Source of the DNA: Ceratodon purpureus
Lineage: Eukaryota; Streptophyta; Bryopsida; Pseudoditrichales; Ditrichaceae
Assembly: GCA_014871385.1 (NCBI GenBank)
Contig: CM026429.1
Coordinates: 9,887,640-9,951,639, forward strand
Length of the DNA: 64,000 nt
Direction of reading: 5' to 3'
Under the pieces are notes generated by a model. The model was not told the DNA's origin. It searched no databases and saw only the letters and a list, made by a program, of their open reading frames with translations. Below, one piece after another: positions 845 through 63,860 of this stretch. Every line of letters starts with the position of its first letter. Positions within the stretch are counted from its first letter, which is position 1. The position numbers were made by a program, and so were the translations under genes.

Positions 845-960
845 GCTCCGCATTATAGACCCCGGCGGTCAATTTTGCAACCCCGGCGGCAAAAAATTCT
901 GCTCACTTTTGAACCCCGGCGGTGAAATTCTCTGCTCTCTGCTCACTGCTCACTGCTCAC
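845..960. repeat. Short GC-rich and CTCACTG repeats at a retroelement breakpoint
   Basis: Three copies of the motif ACCCCGGCGG occur between 858 and 925, spaced about 20 and 33 bases apart. They are followed by a run of CTGCTCT/CTGCTCACT units up to about 960. Recognisable reverse-transcriptase homology starts only a few bases later, so this micro-repeat tract sits exactly where the Ty3/gypsy element is truncated. Confidence 0.6.
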
Positions 961-6720: not shown

Positions 6721-8561
6721 CTCATCATACAAAGATTTAAATTGGCTAGACAACTACTTATGTTTGTATATTATCCATCTCAACTCTCACTAGCTGTCGT
6801 ATTTACTTCTGTAACCGCCATTCTCATAGTCCATATCTATTGATTATCAGTTAGGTGACTATCAAATTAGTTGTAGTTATTGGTTTAAACAGTTAGTGCA
6901 TAGAATTTTAAGATAGCCACCCAATTACTTATAAGCGCCAGCATTCATTATTAAACCCCGTCTCTTTTAGCCCATAACCACCATTTTATTTAGAAGACGG
7001 TTTAATGGGAGAAAAGTGACGTTTCTAGACTCATTTGGCTCCAACAATCATGGGAAAATGGCGCTCATTGGGCAATCCGCCTTACGAAAAAAATTCCAAT
7101 AAAATAACATGCAATCAAAAAAATCTTCAAAACCGTTCAAAAATAGAATTCTATGAAAAAGCTTAAATTTAATATTAATATGTGTTAAAATGGCCTTATA
7201 ATGTCATGTAATAACTAAAATTTTACAAAGAAAAGATGTCAAAAAATGCCCATGTTCCTTTTTTGTGGTATAAATTAAATAAAAATATCTTATGGTACAA
7301 TAAAATAGTCATGGCTTATTCATAGAATTTCATTTTAAATATTTTGATTCTTTAAGAATTGTCTTATATTATATTCAATCAAAAAACCACTTTCAATCGA
7401 GCTATGTTTTCAAAGTAACTTTATTGACAACCCAAACTAATTCCAAATTTTGGTGTATCTTGTGCCTAGTGTATGGCCTACCATCCAGTGACAAAAGCAG
7501 GCCGGCACTTCATGATTCGATTCCCATCTTTTGTACCTGGACTCATCTGAGAAAATTCTGTCTGTGATCCGATTTCTGCTCACCAACACTCCGCATTGTT
7601 GTTCAAACTCCTCAAAGACCAAGCAAGCAAACTACTCTTCCTCCCCATGGCAACACAGAACAAAAAATACAGCAATACACTAACGCCCACTTCACATCAT
7701 AGGCAACAGCAGGCAGAAGCTGTGGATTCTGGAAGAGTGGAAGTGCATTTATAATATGGAACATCATTTTAAAGTACATGGCTGAGACAAAACAAAAATA
7801 CTTTGAGAGAGCATAATATAGAAAGCCCAAATTTCAGGGAGTACCTGGTAAATATGATTTCTTTTCATCCATGATGAAGACAATGTCTTTGCCATTAGTG
7901 TGAAGGCACAAGAGGCAATTTCAGCTCCGTGAACCAATTATCTTCAAGGAAATGTGCAATCTCTCCCAAGTCTGAAGTGGGCCTAACTTAGCCCTGATTT
8001 GCGGCACATCAACCCAAGGAATTGGTACTGTCGGTAAGTTACTCTGCAGACAGTGGAAAGGTACACGTTTTCCTTCGAACACAAGTATTTCGGCTGCCTT
8101 GCCTTGCCTTGATCATCACGTTGCTTGCAGGATGATATGTGATGGTTTCTAGATATTTGTCCAAGTTGTGATTAGCAATTTGAGTCTAGAGCTTTCTCAC
8201 TTCATTTCTCACATGGGCATGTATATCCTTCAGGTCAGGTCAGGTTCTCTTCGGTGAACTCATTTCACGACAATTTGGGAGCTTGTTGAGTTTGGGTTTA
8301 AGAGGTAGGTTCTTGCTGTGAAGACCAATTTGTAACTACCGTCGTTAGGAACACTTGTTGGTTTTGCTAGCAATGATTGCGTTGTAGTGATTGACGAGCT
8401 AGACTGTTGGTATTTGTGATCTCTTAGGAAAACTGTTACTTTTAGGTCGTTTGTGGAGAGTGATAGTTTGGCCAATATGGTTGTTGTTATTTTTGCAGAG
8501 TGTGATCATCAACCAATCAATTCTTGTAATAGGTGCTTTCTCTCTGTGAATTCAGCAGACC
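6721..8561. other. Intergenic; 5' region of the F-box gene at its right end
   Basis: From 6721 to 7430 the sequence is AT-rich with nothing recognised. The interval 7850-8561 is less AT-rich and probably holds the promoter and leader of the F-box gene. A pyrimidine-rich tract ending in TTTTTGCAG at about 8499 could be the acceptor of a 5' UTR intron, but no donor was fixed. Confidence 0.35.
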
Positions 8562-9854
8562 ATGGCTCTGGAGATGGAAGAGGAGGCTGAGAGGGTGAGC
8601 AGAGACGAGGAGGGTACGTTCGTGTGGTCCGAATTGCCCAAGGATGTGCAACACAAGGTGCTCAGCTGCTTGCCAATTCAGGATTTGTGCCAAATGCGAT
8701 GCGTGTGCAAGCAATGGCGCGACGTGATCCACCGACGTGAGTTTCGCAGTATGTATGACATAGTGAACAGTGGGTCACAGAACCCTAGCCCTGTGATATG
8801 TTACATGGAGTCGTCTTATCCGATTCGTCTCGAATGGGCTGCTTACGATTACGCTGGAAGGACGTGGAAGAAGATGAACAGCTTTCCTTCTCTACCTCAG
8901 AGTATCCTTACCCAGCTCAGTGTTCGTCGTCACTACAGTTTATCTTCAGTAGGAGGACTTCTATGTTTGTACTTCTGGAAGGAAGAGAAAAGCCCGAAGG
9001 GATATCGAAATTATGCCCATAATGCACCACCGGGTGTGAGTTCGTGGACAGTGTGGCATCCTTTTCGGAACAAATGGAAGAGGCTGCCCCCCTGCAAGCA
9101 CAGAGTGAGCGACAGAGCCCCTCTCTTCGTGCATGCTTTTGTCTCGGATGAACAAGCGAAGACTTACAAGATCTTGATGGCTCATCACCCTAAGAGCCAC
9201 CGGTACCAATTCGATGAGGGGGACCCTGACCGAAGATTGGTGACCGAGATCTATGATTCTGCAACTGGAGTTTGGACCGATGGAGCTGAATTTTCTGAGT
9301 TTTCCCAAGGCTTTCGAACGTATCCGCAAGCCGGGCTGATTAGGAGAGGCGTGCGTTGCAATGACATGATCTACTTCTTGACTGGGGGATACACTTCAAT
9401 AGGCCAGAATGCGCTCTTGTCTTACGACATCAAAAACGATCGATGGCACGAGGAGAGCTACAGCACTCGCTATCCAATTTTCGAGTGGGACGGTCGTCTG
9501 ATGTCAATCACATTGCGAACCTCTGAACCTGATGAGTGGAACAGGATGCTTAGAACATATTCCTTCGTCGAAATGAACCCTGATACGAGAAGGTGGGAGG
9601 ATACCGGGATCGAGATACCTTGGAATAAGATACTAATCAAGTTTCGAAATATGGACAGTCTCGCAATAGTTGCTAGTGGAAATGAACTTGCTTTTACTGG
9701 TAGCGCAACAGGTGGAGGCTTCAAGATTGCAGTTTATAAAAGAGCCGAAAATTATTGGAGACTTCCTCCGACTGGAGCTTTCTCTGATAAGATGGAGCGT
9801 AGTAAGGTTGAAGGATTGCTTCTGCACACGCCATTGTTGGATTGGAGACCTTGA
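8562..9854 (+). CDS. F-box protein with probable kelch-type C-terminus
   Basis: The 430-residue single-exon product should be the substrate-binding subunit of an SCF ubiquitin ligase. The F-box spans about residues 22-60 (SELPKDVQHKVLSCLPIQDL, then CKQWRDVI), which binds SKP1. The rest has repeated strand-and-turn patterns such as YDSATGVWTDG, YDIKNDRWHEES and MNPDTRRWEDTG, typical of the kelch-like beta propellers of plant F-box proteins, though I cannot count blades with confidence. The chosen ATG lies in a good context (ACCATGGCT) and directly precedes the F-box. The TGA at 9852-9854 closes the frame with no sign of decay. The target protein cannot be read from the sequence. Confidence 0.88.
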   Translation: MALEMEEEAERVSRDEEGTFVWSELPKDVQHKVLSCLPIQDLCQMRCVCKQWRDVIHRREFRSMYDIVNSGSQNPSPVICYMESSYPIRLEWAAYDYAGRTWKKMNSFPSLPQSILTQLSVRRHYSLSSVGGLLCLYFWKEEKSPKGYRNYAHNAPPGVSSWTVWHPFRNKWKRLPPCKHRVSDRAPLFVHAFVSDEQAKTYKILMAHHPKSHRYQFDEGDPDRRLVTEIYDSATGVWTDGAEFSEFSQGFRTYPQAGLIRRGVRCNDMIYFLTGGYTSIGQNALLSYDIKNDRWHEESYSTRYPIFEWDGRLMSITLRTSEPDEWNRMLRTYSFVEMNPDTRRWEDTGIEIPWNKILIKFRNMDSLAIVASGNELAFTGSATGGGFKIAVYKRAENYWRLPPTGAFSDKMERSKVEGLLLHTPLLDWRP

Positions 9855-11755: not shown

Positions 11756-14700
11756 TTATTTTGCTGATGAGCCTGGTGCATTGACTAGTCTCCGCTCGAG
11801 GAACCTTTCCAGGAGGAGCTGCAACTGTTTCTGATCAAGTGGCTGACACCACCACAACAATACATCCAAAACGGCGTTAGGCGGAAGCTTCTAGATTCGA
11901 CATAAACAGAGGGTAAAAGAGTAATTGTATGCTCTGTGAGAATCAGGGAGTGGCGAAATCTAACAGAAGTACAAGCTTTGTAAACACATACCTTAGGAAT
12001 GTAATCGTCCATCCCAGCACTAAAACACATCTCATGAGTCCCCTTCATGACATCGGCTGTAACTGCCACTATAGGGATTCGATGATGCGAGCACTCTTTT
12101 ATTTCTTCATAATCATACTCTATCTTCTCCAGAGCTCGGCATTGCTCACATTTGTCAACCTCCCACTTTCTAATGAGTCGTGTGGCTTCATACCCGTCCA
12201 TCTATGGATTATAATTCAATTTGCAGCAAACCATGGTAAGTGATGATCACAACGTCCACTGAAAACTAACCAGTATGGATTATAATTCAATTTGCAGCAA
12301 ACCATGGTAAGTGATGATCACAACGTCCACTGAAAACTAACCAGGTTGACCAAGTTTAATGTTTTATAATAACTGCCAAGCAAACCGACAGAACACACTA
12401 CGAAATAAATGGGACGAATTAAAAATCAAGATGCTTACCTCTGGCATTTGAATGTCCATCAAGATCATGTCGAACTGCTTCTCAGGTGGTTGATTTCTGA
12501 CAGCATTAATGGCCTGGTTTCCACCATTCACAGTGACGACGGTCGCACCATACCGTTGAAGCATGGAGCTCGCAACTCTTCTATTTACCATGTTATCGTC
12601 CACCACAAGCAGCCGCTTGTTCGAGAGCATCTCAGCATTGGTGTTCTGCTTCCTGGACGGATTCGTCACTTGCATGCCAAGGCTTTGTATCAATCCAGCT
12701 ATCAAAGTGGTGCACCGCAGTGGCTTGTGAACTATGTGCAAGTAACCAGCTTCATGTAACTCACTTTGCAGTGAGCTATCCGGTGGAATAGAAAGAGCCA
12801 ACACAGGGATTCTCTTAAACGTCGACTCCTTCAATCGTTGCACCAGCCGAATTGAAGAATTGTGATCCATGCCTTGCAAATCCACAATCACTGCTTGGAA
12901 TGGGGGCCCGTCATTCCTGTGTTCCAGAAGCAAGTATCGACCCATGTATAATTCGTCAGAGAACTTAACCAATGCAACGCTTATTCAAAATTGTACACTA
13001 AGATTCTACTTCGCAAATACAGTTATGTGATTCCAAAATGGGTCGTAGTGATAATTTACCTTGCTAATAATTCTAGAGCAATACGGGCATCCTCGGCATA
13101 CTCGATCAACGCTCCAACTCTCCGCAAATACGTCGCTGCAACTTCCTGCTCCACGTCAAACAAATTTGTCAGAAAGAAAAACTAAACAATTACAAAAAGA
13201 AAGCAAAAACATATCAATCAAACAGAATGCGTAGGCTTGAAGCTCGAGCACCAGGAAATCATCAACCATAAATTTTGAAAATGCATAGCAAATCAAATTG
13301 AAGCAGTAAAAATCATACCTGTCGCACAGGGTTAGCATCCACCAGAAGAACCTTAATTCCGGAAACTCGCTCGTCTTGCAAGCCCGACGGCGTGCGCTTC
13401 ATGGCGAAGGCTAGCTTCTGCAAATCACCCCTTTGTCCTGACGTCGGCAATACCTGTGAAAACTTGAAGACACTGCCTTCTCCAGGTTCGCTTTCAACGA
13501 TTATATCTCCCCTCGTCAACCTTACCAACTTCTGCAAATTCATACCAAACATCACAACGTTAAATTCAATACCTAAATGCTCGTCTACACCCTGGACCCT
13601 AAACCCCTAGGAACATGGTAACTGTTAAGAAACAAGCTATGATGGATCTGTTGCTCAAAAATTTGCAGCACAATGCAGATAATACCCGCTGTGGTCCTAG
13701 ATTGATTACCTGGCAAATAGATAAACCGATGCCAGTGCCGCCATACTCTCTGGAGGTGCTGCTGTCGGCTTGCACAAAAGGCTCAAAGAGCCTGCTCTGC
13801 ATGAACTTGGGGATCCCTATTCCTGAGTCTTCGATGGATATGACGCAAGTCACTTCGTCGAAGCCCAGATCACCAATGGGCTTCCAGTTGCGCCACTCTG
13901 CCACACAAGATGATGAGCTCAGAGGACCCGGTTTCATGCTCAACCTTGGAGGAGCCATGTGTTGGTGCCGTGCCCGGAATAAGCTGCTGCGCACAGCTAT
14001 GGCGCCTTTGAGGCTAGTCTGATCCTGCTGGCTGTCCACCCCTTCCACCTCTACAATACTATGCTTCCGCTTGATATCCACCAGGTCGAAAAATTGCTCA
14101 CTTGTAGGCGGGGAGATGGTCTCGTAGAAAAAGGGATCCACAAGGCGCACGCACAGGAAGATGTGCCCTTGCTTTGTAAACTGCACACAATGCAAGATTA
14201 GGCTTATATCCTTGCATAAACCCTTGAATGATCGCTAATACCCTAAATTCAGATTCCACACTAACGCGATTAAGGTGGTTGGAAGTCAAATTGTGCAAGG
14301 TCGATGCACCAGTAGTGTACCTTGATAGCGTTTCCCACAAGGTTGATCAAAACTTGCCGCAATCTGCCAGGGTCACCGTACATCCACTGGGGCACAGAGT
14401 CATGAACTAAAGCTGATATTTCTAGCTTCTTCTGATGCACTTTCTCTTCAAAGAGAGACAATATGTTGTCTAACTCCTCCCGCATATCAAAAGGCACTGT
14501 TTCTATTTCCATTCTTCCCGCCTCAATCTTGGAAAGGTCCAGCACGTCACTTATCAAAGCCCTGCAAATGGAATAGCGTAGCCCCCGCTTATCACCAACT
14601 GCAGTGATCTATCCTACTTCAAGATGATGCTTTTCATAACCCCAAAGCCCAATAACCAGACGTGGTTGCGAGAGAAGAGTACTTACACGAGAGCGTTGCC

Positions 14701-17665
14701 GCTGGCCTGGGCAATCTTCACATACTCAAGCTGCTGGGGTGTCAAGTCGGTTCCCATTAGAAGATTTGTCATTCCTGCACATAACAAAAAGAAAAAACCT
14801 TTCGTAACTAGATGTACATTCGAAGATGTTACAATTATAGACAGTTTCAGTTGAATCTGCGAAATATTCAAAAAAACTGAAGCACATCCTGGTGTTCAGA
14901 AATGGGCAATCGTACCTATTACACCGTTCATCGGAGTCCTGCAGAAGTCGAAAGTACAGTTGGTTAAAAACTAATCAGATATCTTCAATAAGCTACCCGA
15001 AACTTAACCAAATTAATATCCAACGACCAATACAGATAGCAACCAACAAATCAACAAGATGTCAATCCATTTTGTAACAGAGACGACATTCATAGATGAG
15101 CCGTATCCTTGCCAATTTCAAGGCCTGAAACCAAGTTACGACTCCAGAAGTGAATGAGCAGTGCAATGGTATGAGAAGACGGTGAAGCCATCCTACCTGA
15201 TCTCATGTGAAACAGTAGCAAGAAAACTGGACTTGGCAGTATCCGCAGCCTCTGCTATGAGCTTAGCCTCTCGAAGCTTCGCGTGGATCTTCTCCCTTTC
15301 GTCCACATCTTTTTCAGCAGTAGACATCCTCTTCAGCACGAGATACACAGCCACAATGCAGAATACCACCACTGCTAACATCAGCAGTGGCCATGCGATC
15401 ATTTCTCGCAGGACATGTAAGTGTATATTATGAGTGTACCAGCATTGGAGTTCGATATCCTGCGACCCGTACGTAAACGGGACGCTGACTCCCTCGGAGT
15501 TTTTAGGCTTCGGTCGGTTCCCAAAAAACCGAACTTCACAAGGATTTTGGTCTTTGGTACAATTGTAGTAATCATTCAGTTCCAAGGATGGAGACACTCT
15601 GGTGATAGCACTAATATATAGGTCTGAGTCTTTGAATCTGTGCAAAAAAAAGTTCACTTAGTTCATGAAAACTGCGTCCCTCTTTCAATCAATCAATTTT
15701 CAAACAAACTACGAATAATTTTGACACCATCTTTCAACCCAAGCCACTCAAAACCTTCTAAACGTAACCATTAATTTAATTTCTAAAACTCTCGTTATAA
15801 ACCGCAATAAACTTTTGTACTATTTTTCAGAGTGTCAAGTGACACAAAACTGTACGCGTCTAATCAAATGAATTCAAATGACCCAGGTGCTAGAAACTAA
15901 GATTCAGTACCTTGAGATGACACTTCCAAAGACTTCCTCAACATTGAGAACGGTCACCACGTAGCCTACACAAGTGGCATTCCTGGCTTCAACAGTAGTG
16001 AGAAGATTGGGGTCTACGTCACCATAATGGGGCAGGAACGACCCCATTCGCCAGTGCCCTTGCTGCAGGAAAGGTGGGGACATGGAGAAGTTGCCACTCT
16101 GCCTGACCTGGTTGATGGCAGCTCTCCAGATAGGGTACCCGTAAACGTCCATAAGGTATGAAGAAATATTGAAAGACTGGAGGACTACAGGGGCATATTC
16201 CTCAGCAGGTCCTCGAGGAATTTTCGAACCATTGCTGTAAATATAAAAAGTGCCGTTGTACCGGCGCTCCACTTCTGCTCTCTGGGGTGGCATCACACGC
16301 AGGCAGTACGCCAGGCTTCTCACATGCGGACGCAGAAACAGTGTCTGATTTGTGAATGTCATCCATGTCGGCTGGTCTACCGTCGGTACACTGGTCACCA
16401 AACCCAGAATGACAAACGAAGCGCCTAGATTGTTGTCCACTTCCGACTTGAAAACCTGCATTCATGGTGTCATCCATTGCCAACAAGTGAATCCCACTTC
16501 AGACCAAATCAACTCCTGCTTTTCCAAGGCCAATTCATTAGTTAACACCGGTATGATAGACTACCTGGTAGAACTAAAGTTCAGAACTGTGTAATGGTGG
16601 TAAGCACCTCAACATAACAACCACATTGCATACCATGGAAATCATAGATTGTCTACCAATTTACTTGTAACACAATTCCAGACCATCTTGAATAAATCTC
16701 CACATGTAACTCTAAGTTGCGTTTGCCTAGAGGTTGTGTCATGAACTTGTGATTTGCAAGGTCCGTTCAAAAACAGAAGATTCTGAAGAGAACCTAAAAC
16801 ACAGCCCGAGCTAAACGCCATTTCGCCGCCAGTGCGTGAAAGCTGGTATGTTGATATGAGAAACCGATATTAGCTTGAAAAAACTAAGACTGAGAGACCG
16901 ATATCAACTTCAAAATCCCATCATGTCATCGCCAAGCTCGCTCCTAACATGACACTCAAAAGTTGAACTGGTAATGATGTTTCAACATCAAAAGAGCCCT
17001 AAAGCCGTTGCATCCGATCCATAAAAGCCCTGCCCATGTTGCCGGCCATGATACCTACGACTAAACTAGAAACGCCCTGGCACCATGAAACTTGACGCAC
17101 CCTGGCTCCATGAATGTGCTAAGTCGAAAGAAAGGTAATCCATTCCGCCACTGGTGGGCTGACAATATTCTACTCCCCTTTCACCGTAAAAGAGATTCCA
17201 CAATGATTGCACACTGGTCAACCGAAACGCAATTATGGAGGTGGGACACTCGTAAACATCATGACAACAACCCACACAGAGTCTAGACCGACTCACTTCT
17301 TTCCGATTCTCGCACTTAAGCAGAATCTCCTGGCGCTTGTTGATCATCGCACTCCGGTACACCACCACGCCAACCACAATGACCATGGCAAGCGCGCACA
17401 AGATACAAATCACCTGCATCCACCAGAACCGCAGCAGGTTCAGCTTACACCACTGCCCCATGATGCGCATTCTCGGCCCTCCAGTGATCCGCCTCTCGTG
17501 ATCCCCATCCTCCGACGCCATGGACTCGTCCCGCTCATCCCGCTCCCGCACCGTCTCCATCCTCCTCGCCCTCTGGTGAATCTCCATCGCCCTCATCCTC
17601 ACCTGCCGCCCGCCCGTAGGCGCCCCTCTCTCACCCCACTCCACTGCCTCCCCACCCTGCTGCAT
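11756..17665 (-). CDS. CHASE-domain hybrid histidine kinase (cytokinin-receptor type), minus copy
   Basis: This is a predicted membrane receptor kinase starting a His-Asp phosphorelay. Twelve exons join in phase: 17665-17297, 16455-15911, 15637-15197, 14938-14916, 14774-14687, 14561-14321, 14180-13710, 13531-13319, 13145-13060, 12916-12439, 12201-11992 and 11842-11756, giving 1083 residues. A membrane segment lies at about 78-106. The extracytosolic CHASE domain (about 124-300) contains EYAPVVL, and a second membrane segment lies at about 384-407. The H-box follows, with phosphoacceptor His449 in SHEIRTPMNG. The ATP-binding N (NLVGNAIK), G1 (DSGIGIP), F and G2 (YGGTGIGL) boxes come next. A pseudo-receiver ([17 protein letters not shown]) precedes a canonical receiver with VVDDN, phosphoacceptor Asp980 in MDIQMPE and Lys1055. 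ATG 17665 is the first in frame; the frame stays open upstream to 17908 but without ATG. The CHASE domain diverges from AHK2/3/4, so ligand specificity is inferred. Confidence 0.9.
12203..12344. repeat. 71-bp tandem duplication inside kinase intron 10
   Basis: Bases 12203-12273 are repeated as 12274-12344 with no difference that I can see. The unit ends two bases from the acceptor of the intron between exons 10 and 11 of the minus-strand kinase, so the intron's 3' portion is doubled. The perfect identity implies a recent event. Confidence 0.9.
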
Positions 17666-18250
17666 CCGCCCCCCTCCTCCCCATCTCCAACCAGTCACCT
17701 CCGAAAAACAACCCCACCAGTCATCTCTGCAAACGGAATCTAACTTAGCTCCACCTGCGCGACCTCGACCTCGAGTCAGACCGGTGAAACTTCCTGGACA
17801 ACCCACCGCGAAGTCGTCGCTCCAGCGAGCCCAACTAGTACTAGGTGAGATGAGAGATAAGCATGCAACCGAATGATGGCCACAATCGTGTAACCCAGTT
17901 AACTTCACGTCATTGTTTCACTGTCGCTCCATCAACTTGGCACTGGCCAGTCAAGTTAACCGTCTCGCCCAGTTACTGACTCAGCTACAGTGTTCACCTT
18001 CCGTGGCGCATTTCGATCACCGCATCGCCCTGCATGTGTGTCCCTGGAAACCAGCTCGCCGCGCCAATGCCGACAAGCCACAGCGCCTCCGCCGTCGCCG
18101 CTCCCGTCTCGCAATCAAACCAGTCCCCGGACTCCAATATCTACATCACTTCTAAACTTTCTTGCAAGATGGACTCCACGTGAACATATTCGGAGTAGTA
18201 ACGGTTTTGGATACGTGGCTCTTCGCTGATACCCGGGACCATGTCCCGTG
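17666..18250 (-). promoter_or_regulatory. GC-rich leader and promoter region of the minus-strand kinase
   Basis: The sequence upstream of ATG 17665 is much richer in G+C than the block beyond 18300. It is purine-rich on the coding strand near the start and pyrimidine-rich farther out. I could not place a TATA box or transcription start. The frame runs open through part of it without ATG, so a long 5' leader is the simplest reading. Confidence 0.45.
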
Positions 18251-25740: not shown

Positions 25741-27130
25741 ATATCATATATTTTGGAGATAGATGAATGGCATACACGAGAAATCTGCCACTTTCTCGAA
25801 CGTCGACGCTGGGACCGTCAAGAGTGCAGAGACAAAATAAAATATAAATAAAGTCGACGATAAGAAGACCGGTAACGAACAAGACACGACCTGCGTCGCA
25901 CGACGTTCCCAGCGCCCCCGACCACCCGCTCCCCGCTCCCCTCCCAAGCTCCCATGTTCCCAATCCAAGTTCCCTCGATATGGTTCCCCAACCCCACGTC
26001 CGATCGCAGCCCTCCGTCCCCGCCCCCCCCATCCAACGACCCGAAATGGACGCACACCCCACTCCGAGAACGCATCCGGCCGCGGCGGTGACGAAGGCGA
26101 GAGTTGGGTCGGAGCAGGCCGATTTTTTCACGAATCCCAGATTTGTTGCCAAAAGCTCACTCCAGTGCAAGAGGGCTAGTAATGCCCCCCACTGATCATT
26201 CCACGTGGGATGGATTCTTCTGCCGCGCCTACATTCCTGCGCCCAGTACCCTCCCACTTCACGTCCACTGCACATAGCAACTTCGCCCCACATCTTCGTC
26301 TCGACTAGATTCATCTAGACACAGTACTCGTCTCCTGCCGCGTCTCCGACTGTTGCTTCGTACGTCGACTGCGCGCTGCTGCACGCACTTCCTGCAACTT
26401 CACTCAATCCATACAACTTGCGTGCAGATCATGCTACAGTGGTACTAGATTGTTCGTATTCGAGTTGACTGATCAGTGTATCGATGTTCGTTGCGGGAGG
26501 AGTGATGGTTGATGGACTTACTGCAGGACTGTGTTGAGGTTTTGTGTGTGTTAGTTTTTGGGCTGGATCGGGAGTGGAGAGAGTGAAGTGGGTGGGGAGT
26601 GGTGAAGGAGGTTTTCTAGTGGGACAGCAGGTGGGAAGGGAGTTCGGAGTGTTTGCAGGTTTGTGGAGGATTTTGTTTATGTAGGTGGGTGAAGTTGGCG
26701 CGTTGTCGACGTGCAGGTCGGAATGTAGGTCTTTGTTGACGTTGGTGTGGGAAAAGGTGGAGACTTTATCTGGGCCGGAGGGGCATGCATCAGATTGCCA
26801 CACTTGGCGAATGTTAGTTGTTGAATTTCTGGTTGTACAAGGAATGTGATTTGTCATAAATTCTCCATCTAGAAAAGTACGTGATGTATGTCAGACCCAT
26901 TCAGGTCGCCTGCATCTAGCTCGGAATTTGCAGAATGAATCGGCGGCGGTTGGTGACTCGCTCCGAGTTTGAGCTTCACTCACAACCGTGCTTCATATCT
27001 ACCTAGTCGTGACACGCTGCCGACGTTAATACTCGATTTGCCGACATAAAGAACCGATGCTTGGGAGCTGGAGACGAAGGTAGCAACGAATAGTGGTAGA
27101 TGGGAAAGCTGATACCCATGTCGATGCTTC
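25741..27130 (+). promoter_or_regulatory. GC-rich upstream region and probable leader of the plus-strand kinase
   Basis: Base composition changes sharply at about 25780 from AT-rich to GC-rich. From 26440 to 26760 the plus strand is strongly G-rich, like the leader of the CAF1 gene on its own coding strand. An in-frame TGA at 27110-27112 precedes the first ATG at 27131. The long minus-strand frames here are by-products of this G-rich composition. No core promoter element was placed. Confidence 0.45.
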
Positions 27131-30100
27131 ATGATAGTAGATTCACTTCTTTGGTTGCGAATGGGTCCGAGTGATCTAGTTCGAGAGATGGTCTCGATGG
27201 ATCGCAGCATCAGTAAAAGATGGAGTTCGCGGAAATCCTTGCTTCCTTCCTGGCACAAAAAGTCGAGCACGTGCATGCGCAACAAGCCGTTGCGGTTGGT
27301 GTTACTAGTCTTAGGGTGGATGCTGGCTTGCGGCGTCGGCGCAGTTTTGTGGAAAAGTTCTATACATTCCATGGAAGATGAGTTTTATCTCAAGTGTGAG
27401 AATCGGAAGGAGGTGAGCCCAATCAATTCCGCTGCGAATTCGTCGATTTTCCCTTTCCTACAGGAGAATAATCCTTCTAACCCACATTGTTTCTTCGCGC
27501 AGATTTTGAAGTCAGATTTGGAGAACAACCTGAATGCTTCTTTTGTAATCGTAGGCCTGGTAGCAAGCGTGCCAAATCTCAACGAGGGCATATGGCGTGA
27601 GTACTGTTCCCAAACCCTATTCCTCCGGCCAAATGTGGAGCGTTTGGTTTACATGGAGCGAGTATTGCAAAACGACCGACCTGCCTTTGAGAGGAGATGG
27701 AATGGCAGCATCAGTTACGTCAAAGGCAACAATTCGTATGTGAGGGGTAACGACACAGAGTACGCGCCTATCGTGTTCGAAACGGCTAACGTGCCGTTTA
27801 CCCTTATAGATCCCGGAGCCTACCCTGTCCTTGCGAATGCCATCCGTGCTGCCCGAGATACTGGCCTCTTCACTCTCTCCCCCGCGACCTTAGCCCACTC
27901 TTCATGGACAATGGGCGGTTATCTTGCATACTACGGCCCAGGTAAAGAAGGCTCCTCGTTCGCCACCACACAAGAGCGCCAGCAGGCGTGCCGGGGATAT
28001 GTTGGAACCATGCTGAATATTTCAGAAATCTTCGCCAGAGTGTTGTCAAGGTTGGAGCCAAAACCATCATTTTTAGGGTTTGGTGGTTTTGTGTCTGTTT
28101 TCACCCATTCCCTTTCTTTGGGTTGTCTTATCTACGACGCAAATTGTGCAAGTTTGTTTGATCTTTTTCAGGATTGCAAGTTTTTTTAAAGATTGGTCTT
28201 GAGGTACACTTGTGTTTTCGGTTTAGAACTTGTTTTAAGTTCTACTACGTGCAGCTGGTTTTCATAGAACTTGATAAATTTGCGATGGTTTGAACTCTGT
28301 AATTTGGAGTTTTGATTTGCAATTGTAGTTGCTTTACAAGTCTCTTAGCTGATTATGTGCGTTCGGTTGGTTTTCAGGTTTGTAGACGACTTGGACATGG
28401 ATGTGGTGGCTGTTTATGTTGTGGATCAATCAGCAGGGTTAAACGGCGAGTACAACTGCAGCGCTTCAGCGCCTACTTGTGCATTACCTCTTTATGATCC
28501 AGCCGGTCGGACGCCAAATGCTAAGAGTGTGGCTTCTGTTAGTTGGAGTTATGGCACCCAGCAGTTTCAACTTCGGTGTATTTCGAAGCACAATTTGAAG
28601 TTGTTGGCACTCCGGAATATCATAGCATGGCCCCTGCTCATGTCACTCGTAGTGCTCTTCTTCTCCATCATCGTCTTCCTTGTTATGAAGAGAATGGAGG
28701 CCATTGAGAAAGACGTGAGCCTTATAGAGAAGATGAATGTCGACCTCAAGGCCGCCAAAGTGGCCGCTGAAGCTGCCGACAAAGCGAAATCAAGCTTTTT
28801 GGCGACGGTATCTCATGAAATCAGGTACTACTCCACATTGCCCTAACGGTGATAGAGAAAAGTTTGTACTTAATACTGCATGCATTTCTTTAAAACTTGT
28901 CAGTGAGATGACCATGTTAAGATGTTGAAGTGCGGAACAACGTAATTCATTAGTATTTCTAGCGTAGAAGAGAGGAACATGGTTTAGTTGGAACTCGTTT
29001 TTCTGAGTTCTCTCTGTCTTCATGCCTGTAACTTGCAAATTTAAGCTTTACTAACCACCTTATTATATTCTGGCTGTTTGGTGTAGGACCCCCATGAATG
29101 GAGTAATTGGTAAGTATTCCTATCTGCTTCAAGAGTTGAAATAAATTATGATTGAAGTTTAGTTTATGAGTTTGATTAGTGCTATTGTGGAAGTATCTAA
29201 GTCAGTTGATCAGTGTGTTTTGTAATAATTTTGTGCAGGGATGACCAATTTGCTGATGGGAACAGACTTAACAGCTCAACAGCTTGATTATGTTAAAGTT
29301 GCACAATCAAGTGGAAACGCGCTCATGTAAAACACCATCACTGAACCACCGCTAGTGAGAACTGATTTTGAACCGGAATTTCCATGTGATCTAGAACGGG
29401 AGATAGGATTTTTATCAACTTGCAATCTATTTAGAAATGTCACAGGTTTTGCTTCTAGAGTTTTGGTATTCGCTTACAGGATGTGCGGTTCCTCTGTTGG
29501 CTCTTCTATCAGTGCGCTCATCAACGATGTTCTGGACTTATCAAAGATTGAGGCTGGAAAGATGGAGCTTGAGTCTGTGACCTTCAACCTTCGTAAGGAG
29601 GTTGACAGTGTCTTCACATTGTTTGATGAGAAACTGCAACAAAAGAAGCTTGAGGTCTTCATGCTTGTTCATGAAGCTGTGCCAACTTGTGTAGTTGGTG
29701 ATCCTGGACGATTTCGTCAGGTACTGAACTTCGTGGATTTGCTTTTCTTTATATTTTTAAGAATTTACGACCTGAACGAAGTCTCAAGAAAAATCAATTG
29801 CTAATCGTTGCACATGATCTTACATTTTTGACGTGATGGAGTGTTTAATTTGTGCAGATTCTGGTGAACCTTGTAAGTAACGCACTGAAGGTGAGTGTTG
29901 TCCAGAACTTTTCAACCTACTGTGGTTTAGAGATAATTTTTATTTTTTTCTGTGTTTCGGCTTCATATTAGATCATTCCTTAATTCTATTGTGTTTTCCA
30001 TGTTCTCAGTTTACCAAGGAGGGTAGCATTCTTGTTTCCGTACGCGTGATGGACCCTCATTCTGAAAACGACGAAAGTTTTCCAGCTTCTGAGTCTGTCT

Positions 30101-32709
30101 ACATAGTAGGCTCTAGAGATTCAGCTCCAAGACCTGCATCTATACAACTTTCACAGGTGCTGCCCAACTCTAGCCCACAGTCGAGCTACAATTTGCGGTC
30201 TGGACAGTCAACAAGAGATGAAGCAGACTTGGCAAGAGGGAATACTGCTCCAAGATTAAGCATGCATCCTGGAGATGAAGCCAACACTAGAGAAGCCGTG
30301 GCAGCGTGGAGGGCTTGGAAATTAACAACAATTTCTGGCAGGAACTGCAAGCCTCCCAAAGATTTCACAGTAATAGTTTCGGTTGAAGACACAGGTGTTA
30401 CTTCACCCCAAGGTTTACTTGATCTTGTAAATTGTGTGATAATGTTACGTGATTATTGATATTTTGCAATTACTTTTAGTCATTCATCCCAAGTTTACTT
30501 TGCTTTTTTTTAGGTATTGGTATCCCACTTCATCTGCAGCATCGTTTGTTTCAACCCTTTTCACAAGCTGATAGCAGCACTTCAAGGGAGTATGGAGGGA
30601 CTGGCATTGGATTGTCTATTTGTCAGGTAAATTTCTGTCACGTGAGGATGTTTACCTTGCCAGACCATTGGATTCAGTTTTGTGATTTAATTCTTTAGCA
30701 ACTCCATCAAACTCTTTCCCTTATTGATGCATTCCTAGATATCAAGGATCTGTAATCATTCTTTAACACACTCATTCTTTGATGTTTGTCACAGAAATTA
30801 ATTAAGCTGATGAACGGAGCTCTCACTGTGAAGAGCAAGCCGGGAGTGGGCAGTGTTTTTGAATTTACTCTTCCTTTGTCTGTTCCGGAGACGGCTGATG
30901 CGAAGCTGAGTAGCTGCGTCAGAACTTCCATGGCAGAGAGGACTAAATTGAAAGGAATGCGGGTGGCTCTCGTTGATAGTAATATTGTTCGACAGGTACT
31001 GAAATCATCATTCGAGGTTTCATTGATATCTTTCTGGGTTGTTAACTAACGAATAACAAAAACTTCATATGTATTAAACCGGTAAAGTAGAACTGTAGGT
31101 CTTGTGATGATTTTCAATTGTTAGTCATTGATGTGAATATGCTGAAATGCTATGTGTTGTGGTGCAGGAAGTGACAGCTAGCTATTTGCGATGTCTAGAC
31201 ATTATCATTGATTCGTTTACGGAGGACGTGGAATCCACTATGAATTTTCTGCTAAGGTATGGAATTTTCATCTTGCTACTGTGGACAGTTTTTTGCAAGA
31301 TATACATGATTTTCGTCATGTTATTCTCGGGTATTTACAGAGCTTGAGAGCCAAGATGTTACTTTTCTCTCGTGAATATAAGAAATATATTATTGATTCA
31401 CATTCTGGCCAATATTCTAATAACATTATGATTTGCCCATGTCGAGCATTAGTTGATGTCTCATAAAACGACGTTATGTTCCTCTGTTTCTTTGACATCT
31501 TTTAGGAGTACTAAAATTCGGAATTTTTATTAATAATCATCGCTGATTCTACCGATATGCTTGGATTTGTAGCGACCGAAGCCCGAAGGTGCAAGGAGTT
31601 GTAGTTGATCTTAAGGGAATGCCGCATGAATCTATTCTGGAGCTAGCGTCTTCGATTCGCAGGGTCCCAAGTTTAAAAACTCTTCCTGTTCTAGCGCTCT
31701 CAATGGGCCTGACGCCATCCGGAGAGAAGGAACTAAAGGATGCCGGGATATCGCACATCATCAACAAGCCACTTCGCTATACTACTCTTGCTACTGTTTT
31801 GTTGGAAACGGTTGGTGTACCAGCCAGAGCTCCCATGAAGAAACCAAATGCCAACGCCAATATGCTCAATGGCAGAAAGCTCTTAGTGGTAAGTCAATTT
31901 TCGTTGTAGTTAACCGCTTTGAAATTTGGGGTATAGCTGACTTCTCTGCCAATTGTAGGTATATGTTTTAAACTCCTTGATTTGTGTATTTTGATGTCCA
32001 GGTGGACGACAACATGGTCAATAGAAGAGTAGCATCTTCAATGCTTTCACGGTATGGAGCAATTGTCACGAGTGTTGATGGTGGCGGGGAGGCTGTAAAT
32101 GCTGTAAAGAACCAAAAGGAAGGCGAGGAGTTTGATCTGATACTAATGGATATTCAGATGCCAGAGGTATGTGAACGGTTACTTCTAGTCTTGGCTATTT
32201 CTGTGATGCTATATGCTTTGGGTGAGTACTAATGGTGTCTGCATCGACAGATGGATGGTTGGGAGGCCACACGTCGGATTCGAAGATGGGAGCTGGAGGT
32301 TTGTGAGTTGTGTCAAGATTCTGGCGAGGATTTCTGCCCTCATCATCGACTCCCCATCGTTGCTGTGACAGCAGATGTTGTTGTGAAAACTCGGTCTATG
32401 TGCTTTAGCTCGGGGATGGACGACTATATAACTAAGGTAATCTAACAGCAGCCTTTGCTGTAAGCAATCAACTATTGCTGTTTTGTCCATAACTTGTCAT
32501 GGGTTGATTAGCATATGTGCACCTTGTTAGTTTCATAGTGACTGATGAGAACGTTTATGTGGCAGCCGTTGGATCAGAAGCAGCTGCATGCTTTGCTGGA
32601 GAGGTTTCTGAAGAAAGATTTGGTGAATGCACCTCTTGCAATTAAAACTGGAGCGGCTAATGGAGGACCGATTCGAACCGCGTCAAATTCTTCTGACCTC
32701 TCATGTTAG
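27131..32709 (+). CDS. CHASE-domain hybrid histidine kinase (cytokinin-receptor type), plus copy
   Basis: This is a paralogue of the minus-strand kinase with the same domain order. Fifteen exons join in phase: 27131-27412, 27503-28050, 28378-28824, 29087-29109, 29239-29326, 29513-29720, 29858-29890, 30010-30394, 30514-30626, 30795-30995, 31168-31256, 31573-31888, 32002-32166, 32251-32436 and 32566-32709, giving 1075 residues. A membrane segment lies at about 54-75. The CHASE domain includes [12 protein letters not shown] and [10 protein letters not shown] second membrane segment is encoded near 28620-28690, and phosphoacceptor His423 sits in SHEIRTPMNG. N (NLVSNALK), G1 (EDTGIGIP) and G2 (YGGTGIGL) boxes are intact. 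A pseudo-receiver ([17 protein letters not shown]) precedes the receiver with VVDDN, Asp961 in MDIQMPE and Lys1028. Three introns present here are absent from the minus copy. No disabling lesion is seen, so it should be an active kinase; whether it binds cytokinin is untested. Confidence 0.9.
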
Positions 32710-33786: not shown

Positions 33787-34898
33787 ATGGCGTCGCTGCA
33801 ATACTTTTCCGGGTCAACCACGCGGAGGCATCGAACATCCTTGCCGACAAGAGGGAAGCTACAGATGGACAAGGATCGCAAGTCCATTTATCATCTCGAT
33901 GCCGACACCCTTGAATGCCCTCTCTGCACAGAGCCACTCACATCGCCTGTCTACCAGGTACAATATGATCATAACATTTCTCATCTTACTCGTCCAATTG
34001 TTGAATCACGAACTCGCATTGTACACTTCAAACGTTCACCCAATTGTCGCGCCCATTAGTTGCGTACCATGCTGAGAATTGACCGCATTCAGCAAGAGTT
34101 GGTTGTATAAACCCAAAACCCTAACCCTAAATAACTTGGGGAGATGATCTGTTGTTGTTTTGTGGGTCGAGACAGTGCGAGAATGGTCACATTGCGTGTG
34201 GCCCGTGTTGCGAGAAACTCACCAAGGGATGCCCATCATGCTCCCAACCCACGGGCCGGATTCGGTGCTTGGCGGTTGAGAAGATCATAGAGTCGCTCCA
34301 AGTGGCCTGCAAGCACGCTCACCATGGCTGCAAGGAGATGCTGCGCTACAACAAGAAAGATGAGAGGGACGAGCACGAGCAAGAGGAGTGTAAGTATAAG
34401 CCCGTCCCGTGTTACATCCCTTGTTGCATGCACGAAGGGCCTAAGTTCACATTGCCCGACCATCTTGCCAAAGATCACAAGGTAGGGAAAATGCAACTCG
34501 ACCCGGTGACTGGAAGCGTGAATTTCATCATGTCTGGCTCGAATTACTTCATGATGGTAGCTTTCGACGACGAGGACTCTATCGATGGAGGGCTGCTGCT
34601 TGTCCATCGTGAGAGCAAGAGCTTTCTGGGCGATGCGTTCTACTGCACCACCATCTCTGGGCCGTCCAAAGTGTACAACCTCCGAGTCAAGTGCAGAGCC
34701 GGGTCATCGCTCTACATCCTGGAGACAACCGCCCCTGACATCGCCAAGAATGTGCCCAAGTTCTCCGTTTCCAAAGAGTATCTCCTCATTCCGTCATCTG
34801 GTGATAATGCCAATCCCCGGGAGTTTGATCTGCAATTGTCTTTTCCTAATTCGAACCTCCCGTCGTCTACTCAGAAATTAATACCTCCCGTTGTCTAG
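33787..34898 (+). CDS. SINA-like RING E3 ubiquitin ligase
   Basis: Two exons (33787-33957 and 34176-34898) join in phase at a canonical GT-AG intron of 218 bases to give 297 residues. The RING finger spans about 44-79 (ECPLCTEPL, then CENGHIACGPCCEKL, CPSC), and the intron splits it. A SIAH-type cysteine-rich region follows (CKHAHHGCKEML, CKYKPVPCYIPCC and an H-x-K-D-H end). The C-terminal half is beta-rich and TRAF-like, as expected of SINA substrate-binding domains. Such proteins ubiquitinate targets with an E2 enzyme. Length and domain order match the plant SINA-like 7/10 group. The ATG at 33787 is the first in the exon frame before the RING. A telobox-like CCCTAA pair lies in the intron. 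Confidence 0.88.
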
Positions 34899-37788: not shown

Positions 37789-38607
37789 TCAAGAGTCGGC
37801 GCTATCTGAACCCAAACCATACAAAACACCAGCATACTTTTCTGTGGAACCGTTAAAGAAGCCATCCTTTAACTTGCGGAAGGTGCGAGAAGTGACCAAG
37901 CTATCAGACCCAGCCTGATGGCAAGGCCCAATCCGCTCCACGTCCAACACCTCCGCCAGCCGGTTCAGCCCACCGTGCAAATTGTCACAGAACTTCATGA
38001 GGTACTTGATATCATACAGAGTGGGGAAATACGTCCGCAACAAGTTGAAGAACTCGTCCTCCACTGTCGGCAAATTCTGGCATGTGAGCAGCTTCAACAA
38101 GTAGCCAAAGTCATACCCACTATGGAAAGTGATCCAATGCACATTCTCATTCAACACAATCCCAGACGACATCATGAGCTCCCCAAACCTCTGCGAATCG
38201 ATCCCCCTCTCCTCATTCTGCTGGAAATCGATCCCGCTCTGCTTCAGCAACTCAATTGAGTCATGCGCGTACACATCCTCCCGCAGATTAAACTCCCGGA
38301 AATTGAATTGCCACACGCACGAATCCCGGCTCCCACACCGCGGCAGCACCCCATTCTCGTCCGAAAACGTGAGCCCCAACTGTATGAGCTTGAGCATGTC
38401 CACATTTGCCCTCAGCATCTGGTACTGATACTCCGCATTGTTCTTGAACGTCCCCACCGGCCTCACCACCACGCCCGGAAACTCCGTATCCATAGCCACA
38501 TACGGATACTCATCCACTATGTCGCGTATCAGCTCGAACTCATCCTCCAGGTTATCGGCCCATACCTCCCGGATGCGGAGGGACCCTCCGTTTGCCACAA
38601 TTGACAT
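37789..38607 (-). CDS. CAF1: CCR4-associated factor 1 (CAF1/POP2) deadenylase
   Basis: The single-exon, 272-residue product matches the usual length of plant CAF1 proteins. It is the DEDD-type 3'-5' exoribonuclease of the CCR4-NOT complex, which removes poly(A) tails in cytoplasmic mRNA turnover. Catalytic residues are present: Asp40 and Glu42 in MDTEFPG, Asp166 in [11 protein letters not shown], and His230 with Asp235 in [10 protein letters not shown], giving the DEDDh set. Family blocks [17 protein letters not shown] and [10 protein letters not shown] are also present. The ATG at 38607 begins MSI and fits the family N-terminus. Lack of introns is common in plant CAF1 genes. The leader upstream is GGA-rich on the coding strand. 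Confidence 0.95.
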
Positions 38608-38770
38608 GTAGTTGCGGTTTCCTCCTTAGGGTTCTCCTTCCCTCCTCCTCCTCCTCGCTGCTAATCCTCCTCCTCCTCCCCCGCCGTTGCATACACTCCC
38701 CCTCTCCCCTCTCTTGCCCTTCTCCCCCCCACCACATAAGAAACCCCCGTCCCACGCCCCTCTCCCTCAC
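38608..38770 (-). promoter_or_regulatory. Purine-rich (GGA)n leader of CAF1
   Basis: On the CAF1 coding strand this stretch is almost only G and A with many GGA units. It lies just upstream of the ATG, so it is probably 5' UTR. No TATA box was placed. Confidence 0.5.
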
Positions 38771-57734: not shown

Positions 57735-60700
57735 ATGAACTTGAGTGACGATGAAGAAGCTCCAGTTGCGGTACTGCTACTATTACTCGGCTCTCCTTTG
57801 TTTTGATCACTTTGTTTAGGTTCCTCATGAGGATGTACTGCTCTAGACTACTACTCCATTAAGGTTGCTCTTTTGATGGGGGCTCATGATCAAGTGGCCG
57901 TACGCTGTACGACCAGTTTGAAATCTCTAGGGTTTAGTGCAATCTGAAGAATCGTAATCGGAGTGACAGACAGTTATGTTAGGGTTTAAATTCTCGTCGA
58001 ATTAGTCACTACAGTCTCTATTTGGAATGAGGCCCTCTTTGAAGTGCATATCCTGCATGCCACTGTCTCCCATAGCAGTAGTCTGAAGGATCACAATCAG
58101 GTGCACGCAGATCAGTGCAGGTTTGGTAGAGGCAGACAGTGAAACGCCAGGAGCGTCAGTTTACGGGATATTATCAGAAACTTGGCTGAGTGGATAACTG
58201 ACTCAAAGCGCAGGCTCTGGCCTAGAGGCACTTACATTTTCTAGTGTCGAATGATTAGCTAGACTAAACTCCTTCAGTTCCCCTCTTGTGTTAACACTTC
58301 TTCCAAGCCCGGACTTGAAATAGAGCCCTTGCTAGTCATGGGCCTGAAAGGTGTATTCTCAGACTGATAAGGTGTCAAAGGTAGCATCGGGGGAAGCCTT
58401 CTCCTATCTTCTAGTGTTCTAACTAATTGGTGCACTAGATGCATGTGGCCGTCTTCTGCCTTCCCAAAAGACGCTACCTACAGCTGCTGCTGGGAATATA
58501 ACTGAATGAGTTGACAAGTTTCGATTATTTTCTGTCTGCAAGGGAAAGGAACCTCGTAAACGAAAAATCGGCGAAGTTGAGCCATTACATCTGTCTTCGT
58601 TAGCTCCTGACAAGTTTGGTGCACTCCGAGACCAGGAAGCCGAAAGACCCAGTGTCCACCGCCGTGTGCAAACCACGGCAGACTCCAGCACCGGATCTTT
58701 TACCCCGTTCGAGCAGCACAGTATCGAAGGAGGTGGAGGTGGTGGTGGTGGTGGCAGGCAGCAACATCAAGGCGTGAGAGCGTTGGAGGATCAAACTTGC
58801 AGCACGTGGGGCAGGTACATCGAATTCGATTTGGAGAACGAAGGTACAAGCCAGCCTGTTGTTGGTGGCAGTCAACGTCTTGACGATCCGTCATCGCATT
58901 CTTCGATACCCATCTCTTGCACCCTTCACGAGAGGACGTCCATCAGCAGTGCAGGAGGAGGACCAACATTGCAACTGCAGCAATTCTTTGCAGTTGAACC
59001 ACCTTCTGAACATGTGAGTGACTTCTGTGCTTCAAGTCTCACGGTCGAAAGTCATTCTTTTTGATGTTAGGACTTCTTTTTGACGAATAGACTGTAATTC
59101 GGAAACTTGGGACTACGCGCACTAGTGTTGGTAAATGTCCGCCATGAACTTTAGTTGATATCTTAGCAGAGCAGTCTAAAGACAAAGATACGGTTCAAAT
59201 TGCCTTGGGAATACGCTCAGTCCTTGTGTACTAAGATAACTCCTGTTGTAAGTCACTGGCTACAGTACTTTTGATCAGTGAGGGTACATCGAAGGTCCAA
59301 TGAGGCAGCCAATGACGTCCAATAGTACAATTCATTGATACAGATTATAGAGCGTCAAGTTTGGACACTGGGTAATTGAAGCGCCATTGTCTTTCTTCGT
59401 ATTAAGTTGACCGTCGAGAATTCTCTGAACAACTAGTTGGGAAATGCTACAAGAACCTATGACCAGAAATATGTTTCCAATATTGATCAGATCGTCTTTC
59501 ACAAGATTACTATAATTTCTTGTTTGTGAGATGGGAGGAATAACTACTTAAAATTCATGCCGGAGTATCAGACTTAATGTAGAGCAGCGAAATAGACGTA
59601 CATTTAGGAACGGCGATGAGAAGGAGTTCAACGTCACCAATATAGATATATCGCAACTATTTAGTTAGCCAAAGCAAAAAAAGCTGCAGCTAAGTTCTTT
59701 GAGTGCAGCTTAATGCAGATGGATTTCGTACTCTTGGTTAATTGCGGCTAAATATATTCGCAGAGAGGCAGGAGTTAGGCTTTCAGCGTTGGATCTTCAA
59801 TGGATTGCTGATGATATGATGCTGGAATATTTAGCTTCATTGATAGGATAGGAGCTGTAGCAGCGTCTTTTGAAGGGAAACCGCCGGATCACGGTGCAAA
59901 AAATGATTTTGCAAAAGCTTCTGAAATAATTCTCTTTTGGCAATGTTTTATCCTTTCATTTGGGTCCAGAACAGAATGTGGACGAATCTACTCGCGTAGA
60001 GCCATCTGAGCCCTCTCAAAATGAGCTGCAGCAGGCAGTAGAAGAGCACAATGAATCCGAGCAAGGGTTCAATGCAGGATCTATGCCCACAGCTCTCTCC
60101 AGAATATACTCCATTCAAGATCGCACCACCAGGACAGCAGCAGCACCACCATCCACTTCAGCAGACCCGAGGCCAACTATTCGCTTCAACATTGAAGGTG
60201 ATCAACCTGCAACTATCCTGGAACGTGCAGGCTCATCTGAGCTACACAGCCTGGACGACCTCCCAAGGTTTGCACCCATGGGCGACTACACCGAAAGCTC
60301 GGACGACGCATGGCACTCTCGCCAGTCAACCGACCAATATCCCGTGAGGATCAACTATCGCTTTGCTTCAGCAAGACTAGAAGCGTCCTTGCTTGAGCGC
60401 ATGGAACAACGACAAAGAGTGCAGGTACGTAGTTTCTCTCAGTCCATTTCAACTAATCAACCAAAACTTACACCCAGTTCCTTCTGACCTTCGGCCGTAA
60501 ATTCCCAAATTATTAACTTGATTAAAATGTACAGTTACTTGACTTTGTGGACGTACGTTGGTACTGCTTTTAGGATGAAGACCATCGAGAGGAAAGAATT
60601 TGTGGTCATGTCATTTCACCAGAGGTATACATTGCAACCATCAAATGATTTTTATGCAATTTTGGTTTTAAAAACATATATTTCTCCTGCATAGTACTGA

Positions 60701-61911
60701 CGATGTTGTTACGATCAAGTGTAATTGTATGTACAGTTTCAGTTTTATCAAGTTTTGGTTGGCAAAGATTTCTCATGTTTGGATTGAATGCAGGACTTGG
60801 TGTGGGGAAGTGTGAAGCACTATTGCGGAATGGTGCTAGACAGAGAAACCAGCGCTGTGCTAGGCACTGCTATTCTATTCATGCCCCCGGATCAGGCAAA
60901 CATACCTCCTGAACGGAAAGCCGAGACTTCATCTCGGCCTGCATCAGGCTCCAAGTCGGCGTGGGTGACGAGTGTGAAAGTGGTGGAAGGGCGCACGGAG
61001 GTGCTCATCAAGAACAGTAGGGGCAACGTTCACGTTGCGCAGCTGATGCTCACAAGCACCGTCCTGGGATTAGCCCTGTTTAGCCTTCATGTGGGGCAAG
61101 GCACATTTGCGCTAGCCTTCCTGAGCAGAGTGATTGGGCCGGCGAGCCTCCCCCATCGACTCTTCGTGGACGTCGATCGGAGCGACCGCGTCTATGTCGT
61201 TGGGTAAGCTCTTATCTCAATTTCTAATTTCACTTTGTTTACCTTTGTCATGCTATACAAACCGTGCCAGTTGGTTGCAATCATCAATTCCTTCTAGGTG
61301 ATTTCAAGGTTTAGGATTAAGGTTTCGTTAAAAGATTCTGCTTGATTAACAAAATTGATGATTAGTGGAATTGCGTGTATGATATGGAAAGAGTTCAGTA
61401 AGAATCCAGTGCGGAAGGTTGTTTTTTGAATTTAGTGTTTCGAGGTACAGTTCAGTTTTGATGTGCTCTGATTTTTGGGGTTACAATTTTTTGTGTCACG
61501 GGAGTTGATTTTGAAGTTGGTTTTGGAATAAGAGGAATTTATGAGAATAAGATGTTGGTCACCATAGAGATCGAATACAGTAACTTGCAGATTGTAGGTA
61601 CTAATCGATTGAAATTGGTGCAACGCAGATACGAGGAGCCATGGGAGTCCGAGGTTGGGACAATATCAGATGTCAGAGTGCGACCAGGAAGAATAATCGA
61701 TGCGGGGAGGCATGCGATTGTTGAGATCGACTTCACTTCGGGTCAATTGGGCGGTTCTATCAATTCTCCAGTAGGATTCCGAGGCGGATTGGTGGTTCGA
61801 GCAGATGGGCTTCTGGCAGGTGTTGTAACCGGTGATGTCTTGGGCAATCATCCAACCAATATTGATTTTTCTCCGGCTTTTAATGTTTACTCCCTTCTTG
61901 AGGAGCTATAG
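57735..61911 (+). CDS. HtrA/trypsin-fold protein lacking its catalytic triad (pseudoprotease)
   Basis: Six exons join in phase: 57735-57770 (uncertain), 58543-59013, 59975-60424, 60574-60624, 60794-61203 and 61629-61911, giving about 566 residues. The first third is low-complexity and acidic with a run of nine Gly near residue 80; no domain is seen. Residues about 337-566 follow the HtrA/DegP strand order. WVTSVKVVEG sits where proteases have the V-T-N-x-H-V-V active-site His, so the His is Lys398. TSTVLGLALF replaces the D-x-A-L strand, so the Asp is Gly428. GFRGGLVVRADGLLAGVVTG replaces G-N-S-G-G, so the Ser is Arg524. With all three lost, hydrolysis is not expected; a binding, chaperone or scaffold role is inference. 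No PDZ domain follows. The exon 1 choice and the acceptor at 58543 (GCAAG) are weak, so the N-terminus may change. Confidence 0.65.
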
Positions 61912-61957
61912 TTAAATCTATTCAAGGTGATCTAGTTCATACATGTCGATCCCGTGA

Positions 61958-62155
61958 TAGAAATTATATGATCTGTAATGGTCATTAGTATTATTCCACT
62001 ATGATCTCTACCAAAAAGCTTGATAGAAATTATATGATCTGTAATGGTCATTAGTATTATTCCACTATGATCTCTACCAAAAAGCTTGATAGAAATTATA
62101 TGATCTGTAATGGTCATTAGTATTATTCCACTATGATCTCTACCGAAAAGCTTGA
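61958..62155. repeat. Three tandem copies of a 66-bp unit downstream of the HtrA-like gene
   Basis: Units start at 61958, 62024 and 62090. They are identical except for an A-to-G change near the end of the third. The array starts 47 bases after the stop codon and probably lies in the 3' UTR. Each unit contains one TGATCTGTAATGGTCATTAG block. Confidence 0.95.
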
Positions 62156-63298: not shown

Positions 63299-63860
63299 TT
63301 ACCAGCCTCCAGGCACTTTCATTCCTGAGGTAAACAACAAGAGATCGAGCAAAATCAGAAACAAATATAGTGCATCCAGTCACTGCAATGATCACTTCGA
63401 AATTCAGCAAAATCTTCCACGAAATGCTGAGGAGAAAATACAAGAGTTCATGGCCTGTATTACGAAGTGATTCAATCAAGAAAAAGAGTCCAACTTGAAA
63501 CAAAAGGAGGATATTATATAAAATTCACTCACCGTTGCACGTTTCATGCCAAGGCACAGGCAGGCCACATCTGTAAGGCATACCAACAGCGTATTGTGGA
63601 ATTACTCCATATTGATATGCTATTTGAGAAGTCATCAACGAGCAAAGACATTGGGAACCCATCACTCCGCCCCCAAGAGACCCCAATGCGTTGCAGCAAG
63701 CTCTGCTGGGCACCTGCGTAGACTTGGCATAAGCAATGCACGAATACAACGCGTAGATGTTGCAGGCTGAGCCCTGGGCTTTGAGTGCTCCCGAGCTAAG
63801 GATAACGAGGAACAGCAACACATACGTCTTGGGCACGAGGTGGGGCCGTCGTTCTGCCAT
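63299..63860 (-). CDS. Non-specific lipid-transfer protein (DIR1-like 8-cysteine type)
   Basis: Two exons (63860-63533 and 63324-63299) give a 117-residue secreted protein. The first 30 or so residues form a signal peptide with a Leu/Val-rich core (YVLLFLVILSSG). The mature part has the eight-cysteine pattern C-x7-C-x13-CC-x14-CxC-x23-C-x9-C, which folds into four helices around a lipid cavity. AVGMPYRCGLPVP near the end recalls DIR1-like (type d) proteins. The second exon supplies only MKVPGGW and the stop. I chose it because GGTGAGT forms a donor right after the last Cys, and the TTACCTCAG acceptor restores phase. Without splicing the frame would end two codons later. The first in-frame ATG is 63860. 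The lipid and role (cuticle, defence or signalling) cannot be read from sequence. Confidence 0.82.

Follow-up and report, generated by a model that had tools for sequence, protein, structure and literature searches.

What does a plant keep in a protein that resembles an HtrA/Deg protease but lacks all three residues with which such a protease cuts? The question is raised by a gene of the moss Ceratodon purpureus that lies at 57735–61911 on the plus strand of the 64,000-nucleotide stretch of DNA analyzed here as a whole (contig CM026429.1, positions 9,887,640 to 9,951,639; hereafter the window). HtrA proteins are trimeric proteases of ancient origin with a role in quality control, and the HtrA/Deg group is presumably type S1C of MEROPS. 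We put a probability of roughly 0.7 on the gene encoding a non-catalytic HtrA/Deg-type moss protein that acts as a scaffold or adaptor; its fold is predicted, and its inactivity and role we infer.

A six-exon gene and its moss relatives

An original prediction, made from the letters of the sequence alone, had placed the gene at these coordinates with a reading frame clean over several exons, and this was borne out: six joined exons give an open chain of 566 amino acids with GT-AG borders at all five introns. Exon 1 (57735–57770) encodes residues 1–12 and is backed by its GT donor, the frame and the same residues in a public C. purpureus model, M758_8G105500 (P0001), with which the window protein is identical at 565 of 566 positions (the sole difference being E193V). 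The N-terminal part begins in exon 2 (58543–59013), which holds the run RKRK (58555–58566), the motif DKFGA and a glycine run (58729–58755). It ends in exon 3 (59975–60424), along with most of a predicted helix at residues 302–322; the acceptor of this exon preserves the frame, which an alternative acceptor five bases upstream breaks, and its donor follows ..RVQ. Exon 4 (60574–60624) encodes a linker into the domain, ending ..SPE, exon 5 (60794–61203) the first barrel of the HtrA-like domain with the His and Asp positions, and exon 6 (61629–61911) the second barrel, the nucleophile position, the C-terminal helix and the stop codon. About 40 bases past that codon, at 61955–62155, a 66-base AT-rich unit stands in three copies that are 99% alike, perhaps as part of the 3' untranslated region.

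Three protein searches found at least 32 family proteins (P0001–P0032) among the matches listed, a count that includes some repeats (many are fragments, P0005 and P0006 seem to represent the same gene, and P0029 is contained in P0004). One of them, P0032, entered at an E value of 2.0 and was counted because its N-terminal part resembles that of the Ser clade described below. Every family protein with a named organism comes from a moss, of the genus Ceratodon, Physcomitrium or Sphagnum. No relative outside the mosses was named among the matches listed in these searches (two with E up to 10, one up to 1). Two of the searches were capped at about 8,000 candidates, 18 matches have no usable organism name, and relatives without common short words would escape, so that restriction of the family to mosses is provisional. 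Judging by gene names, the Ceratodon members lie on chromosomes 8, 11 and 3. Of the two models from chromosome 11, P0003 is complete, and in the public model P0011 (M758_11G076600) the intron that precedes DLVWG is translated and the second barrel is missing.

Identity between the window protein and ten relatives is 54–78% over residues 333–566 and 20–48% over residues 1–300, the pattern expected if a disordered region is followed by a folded domain. Exon borders were compared in 17 of the 32 family proteins, picked as pieces or intron read-throughs and including Sphagnum-type pieces. The border after the exon 3 helix (..Q) was the same in 6 of 6 covering pieces, that before exon 5 (before DLV/I) in 8 of 8, that after exon 5 (VYxxG) in 8 of 8 (four end at the Gly and four diverge one Tyr later), and that before exon 6 (before YE) in both pieces that cover it. 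P0006 (518 amino acids) runs uninterrupted on a contig of 2,191 bases which, with introns so well conserved, is probably a transcript.

Catalytic positions and predicted fold

The replacement of His by Lys, Asp by Gly and Ser by Arg had been read by eye from three peptides, which indeed begin at residues 393 (WVTSVKVVEG), 426 (VLGLALF) and 522 (GFRGGLVV). When the protein was aligned with Escherichia coli DegP, DegQ and DegS, two MAFFT modes gave the same columns: Lys398 (codon 60977–60979, plus strand) stands at the position of the catalytic His, Gly428 (61067–61069) at that of the Asp and Arg524 (61780–61782) at that of the nucleophile Ser. The His and Ser placements are supported by the end points of Pfam Trypsin_2 matches, which were calibrated on the E. 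coli Degs (DegS puts the His at profile position 17 and, if ungapped, the Ser at 130); in the relatives, these end points give Lys, Gln or Asn at the His position and Arg or Ser at the Ser position. The spacing from His to Asp, 30 residues in the window protein, is also 30 in DegP, DegQ and DegS. Of 23 family sequences, 20 have this spacing and three, with an insertion, have 37. The Asp and Ser positions, in contrast, are 96 residues apart in the window protein and 75 apart in the Degs.

The altered residues extend through the family. By pattern, and leaving uncounted those of the 32 proteins with no matched stretch (9, 9 and 18 at the His, Asp and Ser positions, respectively), the His position is N in 12, K in 8, Q in 2 and G in 1, the Asp position is G in 23 of 23, and the Ser position is R in 7, S in 4, M in 2 and L in 1. 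A tree of 11 domains, from which fragments and P0005, P0011 and P0025 were left out, groups the Arg sequences (support 94/94), two Sphagnum sequences (100/100) and a paralogue clade with Ser at the nucleophile position (100/99); as the tree is unrooted, Ser may have been either kept or regained. Because the Ser clade lacks the His and the Asp, it should be inactive as well. For the window protein, we consider it very likely that peptide cleavage has been lost.

A two-barrel HtrA fold is predicted for the C-terminal domain by structure models and Foldseek, and 8 of 20 relatives have Trypsin_2 matches. Among the 11 proteins of our alignment (A1), NCBIfam gave one weak match, to the MarP family protease (E 0.22). 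Nothing follows the C-terminal helix of the HtrA-like domain in the chain, and no PDZ domain was matched in the 11 proteins at E values up to 10. Several observations weigh against the fold assignment. The window protein has no Trypsin_2 match, whether submitted whole or as the domain alone, and none of its relatives scores above the Pfam cut-off. Searches of the Protein Data Bank (PDB) with the window protein and with the family profile yielded no protease chain, and hhalign against DegP, DegQ and DegS gave a non-significant probability of 0.7% for a short stretch that pairs the Ser motif. The two structure models are low in confidence (mean pLDDT 38.5 and 55.4), the Foldseek superpositions are loose (rmsd 7–10, TM to target 0.3–0.6), and the placement of the catalytic columns is forced in that MAFFT always aligns something. 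The fold assignment would thus be an agreement of several weak lines: the trypsin-type fold that had been proposed is recovered through models and relatives, and the window protein itself is silent in searches by sequence only. Taken with the alignment and the conservation among mosses, these lines support the original view of an HtrA-like pseudoprotease, that is, a predicted HtrA fold conserved in a lineage with its catalytic residues lost. Profile matches to eight PDB chains of KMT5A/SETD8 (E 0.1–2.1) we regard as accidental; the best two extend into an apparent expression tag.

Such scores under the Pfam cut-off, together with names such as "uncharacterized" or "hypothetical" for most relatives (P0007 alone is a "Serine protease" in UniRef), mean that routine annotation largely misses the family. 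No publication on it was among those listed in searches of the open-licence literature of PubMed Central.

The N-terminal part and the rest of the window

The long N-terminal part has no confident fold in the models and is probably disordered. Its longest invariant piece is DKFGA (residues 35–39; 58609–58623, plus strand), identical in all 11 rows of the alignment; the motif is also present in the Sphagnum-type fragment P0019 and missing from the diverged Sphagnum P0025, and a second D.FGA stands eleven residues upstream of it in 6 of the 10 proteins P0001–P0010. This part had been described as a Gly-rich acidic extension. The acidic excess stands (54 acidic and 32 basic residues in 1–332), but the run of nine Gly (residues 75–83) is absent from all four relatives checked. 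Nor is a basic run such as RKRK common to every relative.

SLDDLP (residues 261–266; 60248–60265, plus strand) aligns with SLDLNELP of the Ser clade, which fits DLNxxP and not LxLxL. We take both to be forms of the EAR motif, although one paper searched for the DLNxxP form did not contain it. Among 13 sequences scanned, DLNELP occurs in all three full-length Ser-clade proteins and in the fragment P0032, against a chance level for DLNxxP of 0.5–0.7% of shuffles per protein; it is missing from the window protein, its clade and Sphagnum P0010, P0019 and P0025, and LxLxL is absent from all 13. The window protein therefore has an EAR motif of neither form.

Elsewhere in the window, two CHASE-domain genes in opposite orientation (12367–17917, minus strand, with HATPase_c, and 27113–30456, plus strand) resemble histidine-kinase cytokinin receptors. 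The window also holds exon 1 of a gene for a lipid-transfer-type protein (63531–63860, minus; LTP_2, E 2e-11), frames for a CAF1-type ribonuclease (37792–38625, minus), a Sina-type zinc finger (34131–34895, plus) and an F-box protein with a weak kelch match (8550–9851, plus), and a 940-codon retroelement polyprotein frame, named by eye (913–3732, plus).

Possible roles of a probably non-cutting HtrA-type domain

The protein resembles the HtrA/Deg group (DegS, DegP, DegQ, HtrA1 and plant Deg1 and Deg2) in its predicted fold and C-terminal helix, and differs from it in having no His, Asp or Ser, no detected PDZ domain, and a long N-terminal part without a confident fold. Absence of PDZ is shared with AtDeg5 and AtDeg15 (PMC3473262). 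It had been proposed that such a protein would be a new kind of regulator or scaffold; our results do not establish this, and inactive Deg domains of plants have been described before. A 2012 census includes AtDeg16, OsDegP1/11/14, and, among 17 Physcomitrella Degs, two inactive ones with a PDZ domain (PDia-PDZ) plus the inactive halves of two Deg7 proteins (PMC3473262). With these the moss protein shares an HtrA domain that has lost its catalytic residues, but PDZ is listed for the two Physcomitrella proteins and was not detected in our family, a comparison of domain layout only. No Physcomitrella entry of the census table combines a long N-terminus with an inactive domain, and by layout the family is not recognizable there.

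A functionless, decaying duplicate of a Deg protease would account for the loss of all three catalytic residues and for a Pfam match under detection in the window protein. However, the domain is 77–78% identical to those of three Physcomitrium paralogues, exon borders are common to Sphagnum-type pieces, and Gly is invariant at the Asp position, leaving decay very improbable (stop-free relatives carry no weight here, as they are predicted proteins). The old fold may instead have gained a new active or metal site, for which the conserved H457, H547 and D552 would be candidates, by analogy with MamO of magnetotactic bacteria, an HtrA-type domain turned to metal binding (PMC4794232). MamO, however, is a bacterial protein with a transporter domain, and where its metal site has a His next to the Asp position, the moss family has Leu or Phe (residue 427); we regard such a site as unlikely.

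Doubtful, too, is a nuclear adaptor working with TOPLESS-type corepressors, whose inactive domain would bind and not cut, opposite to NAL1 of grasses. Published work describes NAL1 as an active trypsin-type protease that degrades such corepressors (PMC12915138, PMC12529038), and ZmNAL1a binds its target through an EAR-like motif (PMC12915138). NAL1 and, by prediction, the moss protein are plant proteins with a trypsin-type domain, and DLNELP of the Ser clade parallels the NAL1 motif. Against such an adaptor stand the absence of DLNELP from the window protein, its clade and Sphagnum P0010, P0019 and P0025, the RKRK run that not every relative has, and the lack of a sequence link to any solved protease in the PDB searches. 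We would give little credence to a broader picture in which the PDZ-less moss pseudoproteases (the Arg clade, the Ser clade and the Sphagnum Leu/Met line) form an oligomeric motif hub, one clade recruiting TOPLESS-type corepressors as a non-cutting counterpart of NAL1.

We thus favor a non-catalytic scaffold or adaptor. Because the three cutting residues are lacking and the altered form is common to other mosses, the dead enzyme probably has another job, and a scaffolding role is plausible. A long N-terminal stretch, probably disordered and carrying short conserved motifs (DKFGA foremost), would be followed by a helix and the two-barrel HtrA domain; the motifs may dock other proteins, and the domain may hold partners or its own copies together. 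That it would do so as a trimer we guess by analogy with HtrA proteins and with Deg7, whose second, inactive domain mediates trimerization (PMC3473262). Inactive Deg variants have been suggested to serve roles other than proteolysis (PMC3473262). With a nucleophile position that varies by clade within a domain conserved in Ceratodon, Physcomitrium and Sphagnum, the family offers a natural series for the question of how a protease becomes a scaffold, and Physcomitrium, in which gene removal is routine, is a useful plant in which to ask it.
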